DNA from: a virus
Strand: one strand, 5' to 3'
Virus record (IMG/VR): IMGVR_UViG_3300048037_000103
Location: 1-33,464 of that record
Length of the DNA: 33,464 bases
Of this stretch, positions 8,799-14,259 are shown piece by piece. Under the pieces are notes generated by a model. That model did not search any database. It was not told the DNA's origin and saw only the letters and a list, made by a program, of their open reading frames with translations. Each line of letters opens with the position of its first letter. The stretch's first letter is position 1. A program made the position numbers and the translations under genes.

Positions 8799-8979
8799 TG
8801 TCTGTTCCCCAATTTGGATTTTGCATATACTCTATTATTAAATCTCTGGCTGTCCAGCAATCAAGTTCAAAGTCATCTTCAAGAAAAGGTCTTACTTGTA
8901 GTACATTGTACTCACCTTTGTCTCTGAACCTTCTGATATAGTCAAAGATATCTTTCTTACATTCGTCATCAATAATCAT
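8791..8979 (-). CDS. Small acidic hypothetical protein, 62 residues
   Basis: The protein is acidic and starts MIIDDECKKDIFDYIRRFRD. The middle is VRPFLEDDFELDCW and it ends PNWGTDNG. Two cysteines are present without a motif. It overlaps the upstream ArdC-like gene by 4 bp (ATGA) and the next by 8 bp, so it is part of the same message. The function is unknown. Confidence 0.55.
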   Translation of the reverse strand: MIIDDECKKDIFDYIRRFRDKGEYNVLQVRPFLEDDFELDCWTARDLIIEYMQNPNWGTDNG

Positions 8980-9920
8980 ACTGCCCTCCTATAATTGACG
9001 TTTGATGTGTGATGTTGATAGTCTTCATACAATATGTTTGCTGAATATACAGCAGTCTCTTGTACTGGTACACTTTGCATAAGATAATCAACGGCTTTTT
9101 GTGCATCTGAACTTGCACTCCATAATACACTAGGCTTTTCTTTTAGTATCTTTATCCAAGATTTAAGATAGCTTAGTGTATCTGATTGACGTTCACTATA
9201 TATACCAAACTTTGCACATAGGAATGAAGCACCAAGCTCTGCAACTAATTCTTCTCTGGCATACACATCTTCATTACGAATCTTTTGTGTGATACCATCT
9301 CTGTCTAGCCTGTGCTTTGCTCCTGTTGCGTGTATATATTCGTGGAACATTGTACTGTAGTAACCATTGGTTGACTTGAACCATTTGGTTTCTGGTAAAT
9401 GAACAGCGTCTTCACTGATTCTATAGTATGCTCTGCGTGTATCGCTGTGTTTAGTTTTAATATCACAGCTCTTTAAGAAAGCATCTATGTCTTGGTTAGC
9501 TGTAAACTGAAGCTCAACCTCTGGCTTGTCTATATATTTCTCTGGCAAGTTTTCTACTTGGTCCTTGTTCCATACTGGATAGGCTGAGAAACCACCAGCA
9601 TATTTATCTCCAGTCTCTTCATCAGTCTTTATGTATGGACGGATAGCAAACTGTAGCCCAGCCTTACTACCTTTCTTAAGTTTACCACCTACACTATTCC
9701 ATTGTTTGATTGTCGCCCAATCATTACTGGAATAGTTATACATCTGTGATGCAAACCACAACCACATTGCATTGCCACCACTAAACTCTATGTTACTTAC
9801 AACATTTCTTGGTGGCGTAACTGCTCCGTGCCAGGGGGCTTCCCACCCACTGGCACTCGCAACACCTGATTCTAGATTCTTGATTATCTCCTCGACAATC
9901 TGTTGTTGTTTACTTGGCAT
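8976..9920 (-). CDS. ArdC-like antirestriction protein with zincin metallopeptidase domain
   Basis: The product is 314 residues in two parts. Residues about 5-125 match the N-terminal ssDNA-binding domain of ArdC proteins (QIVEEIIKNLESG, APWHGAVTPPRNVVSNIEFSGGNAMWL, YAGGFSAYPVWNKDQ). Residues about 155-300 are the peptidase part, with HEYIH (H193, E194, H197) as zinc site and EELVAELGASF (about 223-233) supplying a likely third ligand. ArdC proteins protect incoming DNA from host restriction. This suggests early expression and a host with restriction systems. It overlaps its neighbours at both ends. Confidence 0.8.
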   Translation of the reverse strand: MPSKQQQIVEEIIKNLESGVASASGWEAPWHGAVTPPRNVVSNIEFSGGNAMWLWFASQMYNYSSNDWATIKQWNSVGGKLKKGSKAGLQFAIRPYIKTDEETGDKYAGGFSAYPVWNKDQVENLPEKYIDKPEVELQFTANQDIDAFLKSCDIKTKHSDTRRAYYRISEDAVHLPETKWFKSTNGYYSTMFHEYIHATGAKHRLDRDGITQKIRNEDVYAREELVAELGASFLCAKFGIYSERQSDTLSYLKSWIKILKEKPSVLWSASSDAQKAVDYLMQSVPVQETAVYSANILYEDYQHHTSNVNYRRAV

Positions 9921-11227: not shown

Positions 11228-11776
11228 TTACTTCTTTATGGCGAAAGAAGATACGTTGTCGAACTGACTCTGGTCTAGCACCTTGTTTCCATCTTTGGCG
11301 TCGTTATAAGCCTTGATAGCACCATCATAGTCAAAGTCACTCCATTGCACCCCATATGCAAGGAAGAACACTTCGTACCAGAAGGCTCTCTTTGCTACAG
11401 AAGCTGACCACTCACCTTTCGCAATTTGGTAGAATGAAAGTGTAGGTTCTGTTGGTGGGATTTTGCCAACGTCAACAATACCCTCGTCAGACATATAACG
11501 TTGTAACATTCTAGCTTTAACGTCAAGGTTACTCTTTGCTCTAGCTACTGTGTTTTCTGCTTTAACACAGTTTGCACCAGCATCAAACACAACACCAATC
11601 TTGTAGTATGGATTTGCTACTGGAGTAGCGTCACCATTTGGGTCGTCAAGAAGTTTCATATTAGGATTGTTCTGTAACTCCCCATCAACCATAAAAGATG
11701 TGATTTGTGTATCATTGTAACACGTATCAACCCATAGTTGAGCTAGTTTAGATGTTTCATTTAATTTATCAGTCAT
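11228..11776 (-). CDS. First leftward gene: hypothetical protein, 182 residues
   Basis: The start is at ATG 11776, where GGAGG lies 5 bases before it. An upstream in-frame extension is not supported. The protein is mildly acidic: KLNETSKLAQLWVDTCYNDT, DDPNGDATPVANPYYKIGVV, a Lys/Arg helix and an aromatic patch (AFWYEVFFLAYGVQWSDFDY). No family is recognised. It is the first gene leftward of the control region and is followed at once by a strong terminator, so it may be made in large amount as a separate early message. A role in host take-over or DNA protection is possible but not shown. Confidence 0.65.
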   Translation of the reverse strand: MTDKLNETSKLAQLWVDTCYNDTQITSFMVDGELQNNPNMKLLDDPNGDATPVANPYYKIGVVFDAGANCVKAENTVARAKSNLDVKARMLQRYMSDEGIVDVGKIPPTEPTLSFYQIAKGEWSASVAKRAFWYEVFFLAYGVQWSDFDYDGAIKAYNDAKDGNKVLDQSQFDNVSSFAIKK

Positions 11777-11824
11777 AATGACCTCCATTTTTAAAGTTAA
11801 GTTAAACCCAACAACAACCATCTG

Positions 11825-11971
11825 TTCTTGGATACAAGTCTTTCCGTGATATCAGGTCAAGGATTCGAAGAACGACTACGTCGTGTAGTGAGCCAGATGT
11901 AGAGAGATAACATATGCTACCACGAGCGAACGGAGTCCTTGAACGATATGCGAGGATTCCATATCCAAGAA
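11825..11971. other. Structured element A: nested inverted repeats, no convincing gene
   Basis: Outer arms TTCTTGGATA (11825-11834) and TATCCAAGAA (11962-11971) match perfectly. Inside them TCAAGGATTC (11857-11866) pairs with GAGTCCTTGA (11933-11942), with one T-G pair. Within that, ACGAC (11872-11876) pairs with GTCGT (11880-11884) across a 3-base loop. The element is visibly richer in G+C than the genome. An overlapping rightward frame (ATG 11914) looks incidental. It could be a structured RNA, an origin or a protein-binding DNA array. Confidence 0.5.
11832..11860 (-). promoter_or_regulatory. Candidate leftward promoter
   Basis: On the minus strand TTGACC (11860-11855) and TTGTAT (11837-11832) are separated by 17 bases. 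The -35 is near consensus but the -10 is poor (3 of 6). It would give a leader of about 50 bases before the 182-residue gene, which has a strong ribosome binding site. The -35 hexamer is identical to that of the rightward promoter at 12206. Confidence 0.3.
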
Positions 11972-12011
11972 GAGATGTTTCCCTACTCTCAGATATACAA
12001 TCACTATTCAA

Positions 12012-12138
12012 TTCCACATACAGATGTTCTTCTAGGCTTTCTCTGAGCTATGCTCAGCGAAGAAACCTTCTGTCAAGGGAACAAACGGAGGCTCTTGGGT
12101 ATGGTGTGGAGGGAGTTTTTCCCTTGATAGATGTGGAA
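12012..12138. other. Structured element B: second set of nested inverted repeats
   Basis: Outer arms TTCCACAT (12012-12019) and ATGTGGAA (12131-12138) match perfectly. Inside are the hairpin CTGAGC-TAT-GCTCAG (12043-12057), extendable by TTTCT and AGAAA, and a second stem TCAAGGGAA (12073-12081) with TTCCCTTGA (12119-12127), extendable by AAAC and GTTT. Flanking ATACAGAT (12018-12025) and ATCTGTAT (12143-12150) are also complementary. The TCAAGG/CCTTGA inner stem is shared with element A, so the two may be related copies. Confidence 0.5.
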
Positions 12139-12160
12139 GGTTATCTGTATATATTAACTA

Positions 12161-12187
12161 ACTAATCATAGCTTACTCTTGATTAGT
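12161..12187. repeat. Perfect 8-bp inverted repeat, operator candidate
   Basis: ACTAATCA (12161-12168) and TGATTAGT (12180-12187) are separated by 11 bases. The dyad axis is about one helical turn wide per half-site and ends 18 bases before the -35 box of the rightward promoter. It could be an operator for one of the small DNA-binding proteins encoded leftward. It could also be a weak hairpin. Confidence 0.45.
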
Positions 12188-12205
12188 CATTACATCATAA
12201 AGTTC

Positions 12206-12234
12206 TTGACCGATAGAAACTACAGCCATATATT
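12206..12234 (+). promoter_or_regulatory. Near-consensus sigma70-type promoter for the packaging/late unit
   Basis: TTGACC (12206-12211) and TATATT (12229-12234) are separated by exactly 17 bases, and each matches consensus at 5 of 6 positions. Transcription would begin near 12240-12243, at or just before the ATG of the small terminase gene (12243), which has no Shine-Dalgarno sequence. This suggests a leaderless or near-leaderless message made by host RNA polymerase. Confidence 0.65.
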
Positions 12235-12242
12235 ACTCGATA

Positions 12243-12608
12243 ATGACACGCCAACTAACAACAAAACAACAACTACTTGTTGATACTATCGTAGCAAATG
12301 GTTGTTCAATAACTGAAGCATCACAAATCGCTGGATATGCTAAAGGTGAATCTGGAAGAGTGACAGCTAGCAAGGCTTTGAAACAGCCACACGTGCAAGA
12401 GTATATGATGAAGCAAGTGCAAGATACAATAGGACTAGGTGCTACGAAAGCTGTGAATAGGATACTGACGCTATCATCTACAGCCAAGTCAGAGTATGTA
12501 CAACTGGAAGCTAGCAAGGATATCTTAGACAGAGCTGGATTCAAAGCTCCAGATAAGCAACTGCACCTACTGCAAGGTGACATAAGAGTCAACATAAATC
12601 TTAGTTAG
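12243..12608 (+). CDS. terS: Terminase small subunit
   Basis: The product is 121 residues. It should recognise the packaging site and load the large subunit. The N-terminal domain LTTKQQLLVDTIVANGCSIT followed by EASQIAGYAKGESGRVTASK has the helix-turn-helix layout of phage small terminases (LTxKQ, ITEAAxxAGY). A helix follows (KALKQPHVQEYMMKQV), then a conserved end seen in marine podovirus homologues: KSEYVQLEASKDILDRAGFK and PPDK-like KAPDKQLHLLQGDI. No ribosome binding site precedes the ATG, which lies about 8 bases after the -10 box. It is separated from the rest of the packaging genes by a strong terminator. Confidence 0.75.
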   Translation: MTRQLTTKQQLLVDTIVANGCSITEASQIAGYAKGESGRVTASKALKQPHVQEYMMKQVQDTIGLGATKAVNRILTLSSTAKSEYVQLEASKDILDRAGFKAPDKQLHLLQGDIRVNINLS

Positions 12609-12792
12609 AACCTATGGGGGGCAAAAACCACAAAGCCCAAGACACCATAAGGTCTAGCACTCAGATTATTTCTCAAAAGGTACGTTTAAGAATCTTCCTT
12701 ACTATATATGGCTTTACATTTTATTATGTTCTTGATAAGCTTGGTATGTAGTATTATTTTTTTATATTATAAATTCCTTCGACTCCCAACTT

Positions 12793-12828
12793 CCCCCTAG
12801 TTTGCGTATTGGCTAGGGGGTTCTTTTA
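12793..12828 (+). terminator. Rho-independent terminator after small terminase
   Basis: CCCCCTAG (12793-12800) and CTAGGGGG (12813-12820) form a perfect 8-bp stem with a 12-base loop, followed by TTCTTTTA. It would end or reduce rightward transcription from the small terminase promoter. Confidence 0.8.
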
Positions 12829-12921: not shown

Positions 12922-14259
12922 ATGGCATATGGTAGATTTGGTGGTGGTGGTCAAAGTAATCTGAGGGCGCCTGATGCTGGACAAGAGAGAGCTAATAAGA
13001 AAGACCAAGAGAGGAATGTTACGATTCCAAAGGTTAAGCTTCCAGTAAAGAAGAAAAAGAAACCAGTTACTATTTTTGGCTTTAAAGTTACAGCACCTAA
13101 GTCAGACCAAGAAAAAAAGGTAGAAGCTGGAGCTACAGTTATAGCAACTAAAAGTGGTGGTAGGATTGTAACTACACCTACAATGGATAATAAAAGTCTT
13201 ATAATGAGCAAGGCAACCCAAGATAAAACAAAGTTTGATTATCTTCGTGCAAGTAAAAATTATGGTAGTGCGAAACCAGCTATCGGTAAAGCTATTAGTG
13301 GAGGTCAAGCAGTAAGATTAAGTCAACTTGCAAATAAAACTGGAGGAACACCAGCTACATCTACAAGACTTTCTCAACTTGGAAGTAAGACTGGTGGTAC
13401 ACCTTTAACAGCTAAACCTAATGTGCTTTCTAAAAGAACTGGTGGTGCATTAGATAAAGATACAGGAATACCAAAAGTTAATACAGCACAACTGCAAAGT
13501 AAGACAGGTAGTTCACCAACATTGCTTAGAGGTAACAACCAAACATTAAAGTCTGGTGGTCAGTTTGGTTCATTACAAGAACGAACATTCTTAAAGACAT
13601 CAACAAAGGCTGGACGTAGTTTAGCAAATCCAAGTATTGGTTCTTCAGTAGCTAAAACATTAAGTAGTGCTGGCAACAAAGTTAAAAACTTTCTAGACCC
13701 ACTAGGAAAAGGTATGCCTAAACTAGGTGGTAGTAGTAAGTTAAGTATGCCATCTGGAACATCAACATCAGTAGATAAAATTAATACATCTACATTCTTT
13801 GACAGCAAAACTAAAACACCAACAACAACAAAAAAACCAACTAATATAAAAATGGTAACAAAATCTTTGCCGTCTAACTATACAGTAAGTTCTCAAAAGA
13901 AATCAAAGCCAATACCTATTGCACCTAAAAGTAGATTAGCTGGTGCAGACCTTAATACAAATATACTTTCACAAAACATTGCAAAGTCAGATGCTAAAAT
14001 GAATCCATCAACATATGCTAAAGAAGGACCAGAGGTTCCAGTATTTAATGTTAAGGCAAACAAAGTTCCAGCAAGTTTAATCAGACAATTAAGATTATCA
14101 ACAACGGCTGGATTAAATGCATATATGGTTCCAAATGTTTTAAGCACCTATAGTAAAGCAGAACAGAAAGCAATCAAAGCTGAGTTTAGAAAACGACAAG
14201 GTAATAAAAATAAGACTAAAAGTTTATTGACTAGACTAGCTGTTGGAGCTGTGATGTGA
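12922..14259 (+). CDS. Large basic low-complexity protein upstream of terminase, unknown
   Basis: The product is 445 residues with a good ribosome binding site (AAAGGAG). It is rich in Lys, Ser, Thr, Gly and Asn and looks mostly disordered. It starts MAYGRFGGGGQSNLRAPDAG. A Lys-rich stretch follows (KVKLPVKKKKKPVTIFGFK). Three imperfect repeats around residues 130-200 contain LSQLANKTGGTP, LSQLGSKTGGTP and LQSKTGSSP. The last 70 residues look folded (VPASLIRQLRLSTTAGLNAY and a basic helix). It has no recognised family. Its place at the head of the packaging genes suggests a DNA- or capsid-associated function. Confidence 0.65.
   Translation: MAYGRFGGGGQSNLRAPDAGQERANKKDQERNVTIPKVKLPVKKKKKPVTIFGFKVTAPKSDQEKKVEAGATVIATKSGGRIVTTPTMDNKSLIMSKATQDKTKFDYLRASKNYGSAKPAIGKAISGGQAVRLSQLANKTGGTPATSTRLSQLGSKTGGTPLTAKPNVLSKRTGGALDKDTGIPKVNTAQLQSKTGSSPTLLRGNNQTLKSGGQFGSLQERTFLKTSTKAGRSLANPSIGSSVAKTLSSAGNKVKNFLDPLGKGMPKLGGSSKLSMPSGTSTSVDKINTSTFFDSKTKTPTTTKKPTNIKMVTKSLPSNYTVSSQKKSKPIPIAPKSRLAGADLNTNILSQNIAKSDAKMNPSTYAKEGPEVPVFNVKANKVPASLIRQLRLSTTAGLNAYMVPNVLSTYSKAEQKAIKAEFRKRQGNKNKTKSLLTRLAVGAVM

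Follow-up and report, generated by a model that had tools for sequence, protein, structure and literature searches.

What does a phage keep in a conspicuous gap that holds no gene? The window, by which we mean the whole 33,464-nt stretch of DNA analyzed here, is a viral record and a relative of Pelagibacter phage EXVC031P Hodr (TerL 67%); it comes from a marine phage, probably one with a host among SAR11-type bacteria. Between its first leftward gene and the gene for the small terminase subunit (TerS) lie 466 gene-free nucleotides (11777-12242). An earlier note had singled them out as a structured region between divergent transcription units and had offered three readings: a replication origin, a packaging site, or a new phage non-coding RNA present as one or two related copies. 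The gap and its divergent setting are as described; at issue are whether its structure works as DNA or as RNA, and what it does.

The gap and its flanking genes

The leftward genes at 4.5-11.8 kb encode recombination proteins (SSB-like, RecE/YqaJ exonuclease, RusA-like resolvase and an ArdC-like protein), and packaging and structural genes run rightward from TerS (Table 1). Both TerS and TerL are encoded in the window. Homologues of the first leftward protein were found at 52-68% in L003, L163 and L005 and at 23-30% in L007 and L088 (L numbers denote records of related phages). The ArdC-like anti-restriction protein (ArdcN plus metallopeptidase, 8976-9920) has a counterpart in Hodr, and a 445-aa protein encoded between TerS and TerL (12922-14259) is without a PHROG match.

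Table 1. Positions of the features in and beside the gap.
Feature	Position	Strand	Remark
First leftward gene, 182 aa, function unassigned	11228..11776	-	Gap boundary
Element 1, long nested hairpin	11819..11977	+	11819-11823/11973-11977, 11825-11834/11962-11971, 11837-11842/11953-11958, 11857-11866/11933-11942
Element 2 (module A), three-way-junction RNA of P1, P2 and P3	12018..12150	+	Fold z, covariance model, compensated pairs
P1 of element 2	12018-12026/12142-12150 and 12028-12033/12135-12140		
P2 of element 2	12034-12036/12066-12068, 12038-12042/12061-12065, 12043-12048/12052-12057		
P3 of element 2	12069-12081/12119-12131		
G-rich apical stretch of P3, GGTATGGTGTGGAGG (GG-N3-GG-N3-GG-N1-GG)	12098..12112	+	Candidate two-tier G-quadruplex, or a site for ligand or protein binding
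Small third hairpin, ACTAATCA/TGATTAGT, without U tract	12161..12187	+	Between RNA and TerS promoter
TerS promoter, TTGACC-17-TATATT	12206..12234	+	TTGACA common in relatives
Small terminase subunit (TerS)	12243..12608	+	PHROG 2538, E 1e-13; fixed neighbor of the RNA in relatives

As had been claimed, the gap is richer in G+C than its surroundings, if modestly (0.435-0.44, against about 0.35-0.41 in adjoining segments), and the rise recurs in most relatives. Its inverted repeats are 11816-11834/11962-11980 (89% complementary) and 11857-11866/11933-11942 on the left, and 12069-12084/12116-12131 and 12012-12019/12131-12138 on the right. The two nested sets are indeed unexpected by chance: folded as RNA, element 1 reaches a z of -4.2 and element 2 a z of -4.1, each better than 200 of 200 dinucleotide shuffles. 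The arms had been described correctly except for the outer stem of element 2, which is the first P1 helix of Table 1 and not the 12012-12019 pairing. In a scan of the whole window (25 shuffles per segment), two coding segments have a lower z than the elements, so that a single-sequence z is not unique and comparative evidence has to decide. The words shared by the two sets, TCAAGG/CCTTGA and AACGGAG, had been pointed out; relatives do not keep them. Nor do the elements appear to be copies of each other, since the next best score of an element 2 covariance model in the region is 6.3 bits.

Comparative evidence for a structured RNA

A similarity search with the gap DNA in phage records gave zero matches, and TerS, TerL and the leftward protein therefore served as the starting points for gathering relatives. 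Element 2 is kept upstream of TerS in the close relatives L004, L007, L003/L164, L005 and L163, and more distantly in L088. Its covariance model matches L165/L007, L003, L164, L094/L005 and L004, which are the training set or near copies of it, and also recovers L163 (E 6e-6) and L088 (E 3e-4), neither of which was used in training; module A comprises about six independent sequences. Six full sequences compared side by side form the same three-way junction, in which P1 closes the element, P2 combines a near-constant GCUUUCU...AGAAAC (L088 excepted) with a hairpin that varies, and P3 forms a long stem-loop whose loop is rich in G. The arms themselves are replaced wholesale. P1 reads AUACAGAUG in the window, AAUAUAAU in L007, GUAGCACGG in L003 and L005, and AUCAUGUCGAAUC in L088, each facing its own complement; the P3 arms are GUCAAGGG, GUCAUGGG, GUAAAGUC or UUUGUGU, every one of them paired. 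Indeed, both P1 and P3 are swapped outright with pairing intact in L007, L003, L005 and L088, and L004 combines P1 and P3 of the window type with a P2 of the L005 type.

Compensated base-pair changes of the kind that mark a structured RNA were thus found across homologues, as the earlier note had proposed to check. In a five-sequence alignment (inner P2 trimmed in three sequences, and in L004 the hairpin inside P3 as well), 16 of 29 P1/P2 pairs show two-sided compensated change, a count that none of 500 shuffles reached and that compares with 1-5 pairs in slid controls. P1/P2 cells are paired in 91.7% of cases, against 42-48% when partners are slid by 1-3 columns. A fold that survives such complete turnover of sequence among related phages very likely belongs to an undescribed phage RNA. 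Searching the window against Rfam 15 gave no match, even at E<=1 within 11700-12300, and the relatives yielded only a tRNA in L005 and one sub-threshold chance match outside the region. No published description of this RNA was found in the literature searched, which lay mostly outside subscription journals.

The G-rich layout of the P3 loop is identical in L007, L003 and L088, and at least four GG tracts are present in all six loops. From this spacing, and from ViennaRNA energies that favor a quadruplex in four of the six by margins of just 0.2-1.4 kcal/mol, we tentatively suggest that the loop may form a two-tier G-quadruplex. Element 1 varies still more: its sequence homologues are limited to the 3' arm, in L004, and different large 5' domains occupy its position in L003, L005, L163, L088 and Hodr. 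Its position, its z-score and a plus-strand fold 6.5 kcal/mol better than the minus-strand one suggest that it belongs to the same RNA as element 2. At the place of the third hairpin, L003, L004, L005 and L088 have unrelated hairpins by our reading, and L007 has none.

Most relatives have a non-coding gap of 300-900 nt before TerS, divergent from the leftward gene and higher in G+C than their own contig. For 64 non-redundant gaps, the 300-nt segments ahead of the promoter have mean folding energies 17.3 kcal/mol below those of shuffles on the plus strand and 15.3 below on the minus strand, compared with 2.5 for coding controls; the similar excess on both strands counts against a plus-strand RNA. 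The mismatches nevertheless distinguish the strands. In folds with Watson-Crick pairs only (G-U forbidden), single mismatches inside helices of the plus strand were G-U in 55 cases and A-C in 11; a minus-strand fold with its mismatches transferred to the plus strand gave 58 and 11, and the control 14 and 11. Base composition accounts for a G-U/A-C ratio of 1.2 only (composition-corrected P about 1e-6). This strand asymmetry, with G-U kept and A-C avoided, is of the RNA type, and it makes a good case that what is under selection is RNA-type base pairing on the plus strand. Because a DNA cruciform would not explain the bias, the element most likely works as an RNA, read rightward. We hold it quite probable that the gap contains a structured plus-strand RNA working as such; together with the covariation and the lack of an Rfam match, the asymmetry strongly supports the third reading of the earlier note. 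The RNA is presumably transcribed in its own right.

Terminase-upstream gaps of other phages and their signals

Word enrichment brought out a second module, module B (ACGTCCGTCA-hairpin-TGTCGCAACGG), also upstream of TerS. A pattern scan of viral contigs gave 39 matches, about 32 of them members, and every member with TerS in reach shares its strand and precedes it by 160-340 nt. Module B shows covariation of its own (21 sequences), and L088 carries both modules. A module B model gave no significant score in either the window or Hodr, and Hodr was also without a match to the element 2 model; the Hodr gap, structured at the same place (z -6.8), would therefore represent a different, third architecture. 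In bacterial genomes the module B pattern gave 99 scattered matches, about chance level, and a loose P2 pattern matched viral contigs mostly in coding sequence, by chance; both were set aside. Upstream of TerS in L011 and L013, another motif common to both (GCAAGGNCGAAGAACGC..GTGTGCCTTGC) sits within a differently shaped fold at the same place and is perhaps a third RNA module. The divergent layout also occurs without excess structure, in Cronobacter phage Ss1 and Vibrio phage VA-RY-3, and two gaps tested in MEP301 are unstructured.

Of 40 relatives, 34 have TTGACA within 90 nt upstream of TerS. In the window the TerS mRNA is probably leaderless (ATG at 12243), and with a promoter of its own after the RNA, TerS would not need the RNA as a leader. 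Scans for sigma-70-like consensus promoters of the gap RNA gave nothing consistent, and no intrinsic terminator was found for it, including between the RNA and TerS. After TerS, at 12793-12828, there is a terminator-like hairpin (CCCCCTAG-12 nt-CTAGGGGG-TTCTTTT); it lies beyond the stretch scanned for terminators, and its loop exceeds the size limit of that scan. TerS may have a transcript to itself. G-runs recur in the same area. AGGGGG is found within 90 nt ahead of TerS in 27 of 40 relatives, and AAGGGGGGTAAGGGGGGA lies between the TTGACA box and TerS in many of them (e.g., L013, L017 and L011); the window has GGGGGG (12616-12621) just after TerS instead. These runs are candidate packaging (cos/pac) or transcript-start elements.

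Possible roles of the RNA

The gap probably holds a structured non-coding RNA gene, read rightward in the sense of TerS and upstream of its promoter, whose product would join a 5' domain (element 1) to a three-way junction (element 2) at the 3' end, the latter with the G-rich P3 loop. Our leading guess for its role, drawn from gene content and possible rather than probable, is that it lets replication begin with enzymes of the host. The RNA would then assist the host machinery in initiating the copying of phage DNA at the early/late divide, perhaps by serving as a primer or by forming an R-loop, as ColE1 RNA II does. The role is proposed because phages with the RNA carry no DNA polymerase, DnaB-type helicase or recognized initiator. 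Profiles for Pol III alpha, Pol A, Pol B and DnaB (PF07733, PF00476, PF00136 and PF03796) found none in the window, whose contig may be incomplete, in Hodr or in 17 contigs of 31-36 kb; YqaJ exonuclease is present in 18 of these 19. Ss1 and VA-RY-3 encode Pol III alpha, a contrast that is in effect one phylogenetic split. This contrast and a mycobacteriophage precedent are why we put an RNA-dependent start first: prophage replication of mycobacteriophages without RepA requires a non-coding RNA, and in the RNA-based origins of cluster A (Alma, LadyBird) that RNA comes from a needed 400-500 bp segment (PMC7157519). Against the role, MEP301 has no annotated polymerase although its gaps are unstructured. 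The origin suggested in the earlier note thus stays possible by way of gene content; composition showed no DNA-structure origin, and GC skew at fourfold sites, a check it had recommended, gave no origin signal. Hodr encodes a helix-turn-helix (HTH) protein with a DnaT-like domain (L161:2009-2536; PF17948, just above the cut-off), which would fit host helicase loading.

Like plasmid ColE1 with its RNA II and the cluster A phages, this would be a small replicon that has no recognized initiator of its own and has a non-coding RNA some hundred nucleotides long, and, as in ColE1-type replicons, neither a replicative polymerase nor a helicase was found, with the proviso that the contig may be incomplete. 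The gaps of 300-900 nt compare with 400-500 bp deleted in cluster A mycobacteriophages. Unlike those systems, however, there is no parABS among the leftward genes scanned, the phages are apparently lytic and the RNA lies beside TerS; moreover, antisense RNA I and an RNA-DNA transition are part of the ColE1 picture, whereas the evidence here comes from sequence. The phi29 pRNA is similar in its three-way junction of about 120-130 nt, its variable sequence with conserved fold and its packaging context, but a TerS/TerL terminase is present here instead of phi29-type packaging, and on inspection the P2 and P3 loops of the six sequences lack conserved complementarity of the pRNA CE/D type. GOLLD, ROOL, OLE and other ornate large RNAs are likewise large and multi-helix, some of them phage-linked; the gap RNA matches no Rfam model, is shorter and is tied to TerS.

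A trans-acting RNA, serving host takeover, as a counter-defense decoy or in an RNA-protein particle, is also possible if doubtful, and ranks only slightly below the replication role. Turnover would then reflect an arms race and the TerS site would merely be convenient for expression, which agrees with folds conserved under very variable sequence, with swaps of helices, or of whole domains, among close phages (as in L004) and with a G-rich P3 loop that is kept. Adjacency to TerS is maintained in relatives despite strong divergence of the leftward gene, however, which suggests a link to that place. Somewhat unlikely, in our view, is a cis-acting leader of a longer rightward transcript that controls the late genes. 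The HK022 put RNA is an antitermination or processing element, and a similar part here would suit an RNA directly upstream of late genes, in the same sense, in relatives, with no terminator found from it to TerS; it fits poorly with a TerS promoter downstream of the RNA, an apparently leaderless TerS and the terminator-like hairpin after TerS (12793-12820).

The inverted repeats might instead act as DNA, as a pac/cos packaging site or a cruciform origin. They adjoin TerS, and G-run elements lie near TerS in many relatives, yet a DNA structure gives no reason for the G-U over A-C bias (55 v 11), and protein-binding sites would be lost by full replacement of the arms, so that we consider this very unlikely. 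That the folding is an accident of a small protein gene is close to out of the question. The 83-codon plus-strand frame (11914-12165), whose conservation would have spoken against an RNA, is open in the window; beyond identical copies it matches only L004, at 35% with gaps, and all three frames of the region are interrupted by stops in L004 and likewise in L007, which refutes a protein for the known relatives.

Returning to the replication RNA, such a molecule would go some way toward explaining DNA copying in 33-kb podoviruses that have no polymerase, and an RNA-based origin or primer, if true, would give tailed phages a new way to start replication with host enzymes only. It is rather improbable, though worth stating, that a fast-evolving modular RNA family in dozens of polymerase-less marine phages provides a lytic phage with its RNA-based origin or primer, or else has a natural G-quadruplex core of two tiers. 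Reports of structured RNAs under strong selection are few for small marine phages, and the gap RNA holds a fixed place in many related ones without an Rfam entry. As Hodr (EXVC031P), with its structured gap at the same place, is an isolate that was grown on HTCC1062, expression and function are testable. The Hodr record (L161 / OQ414635.1) bears locus tags EXVC032PBaldr_, possibly a labelling mix-up at deposit.
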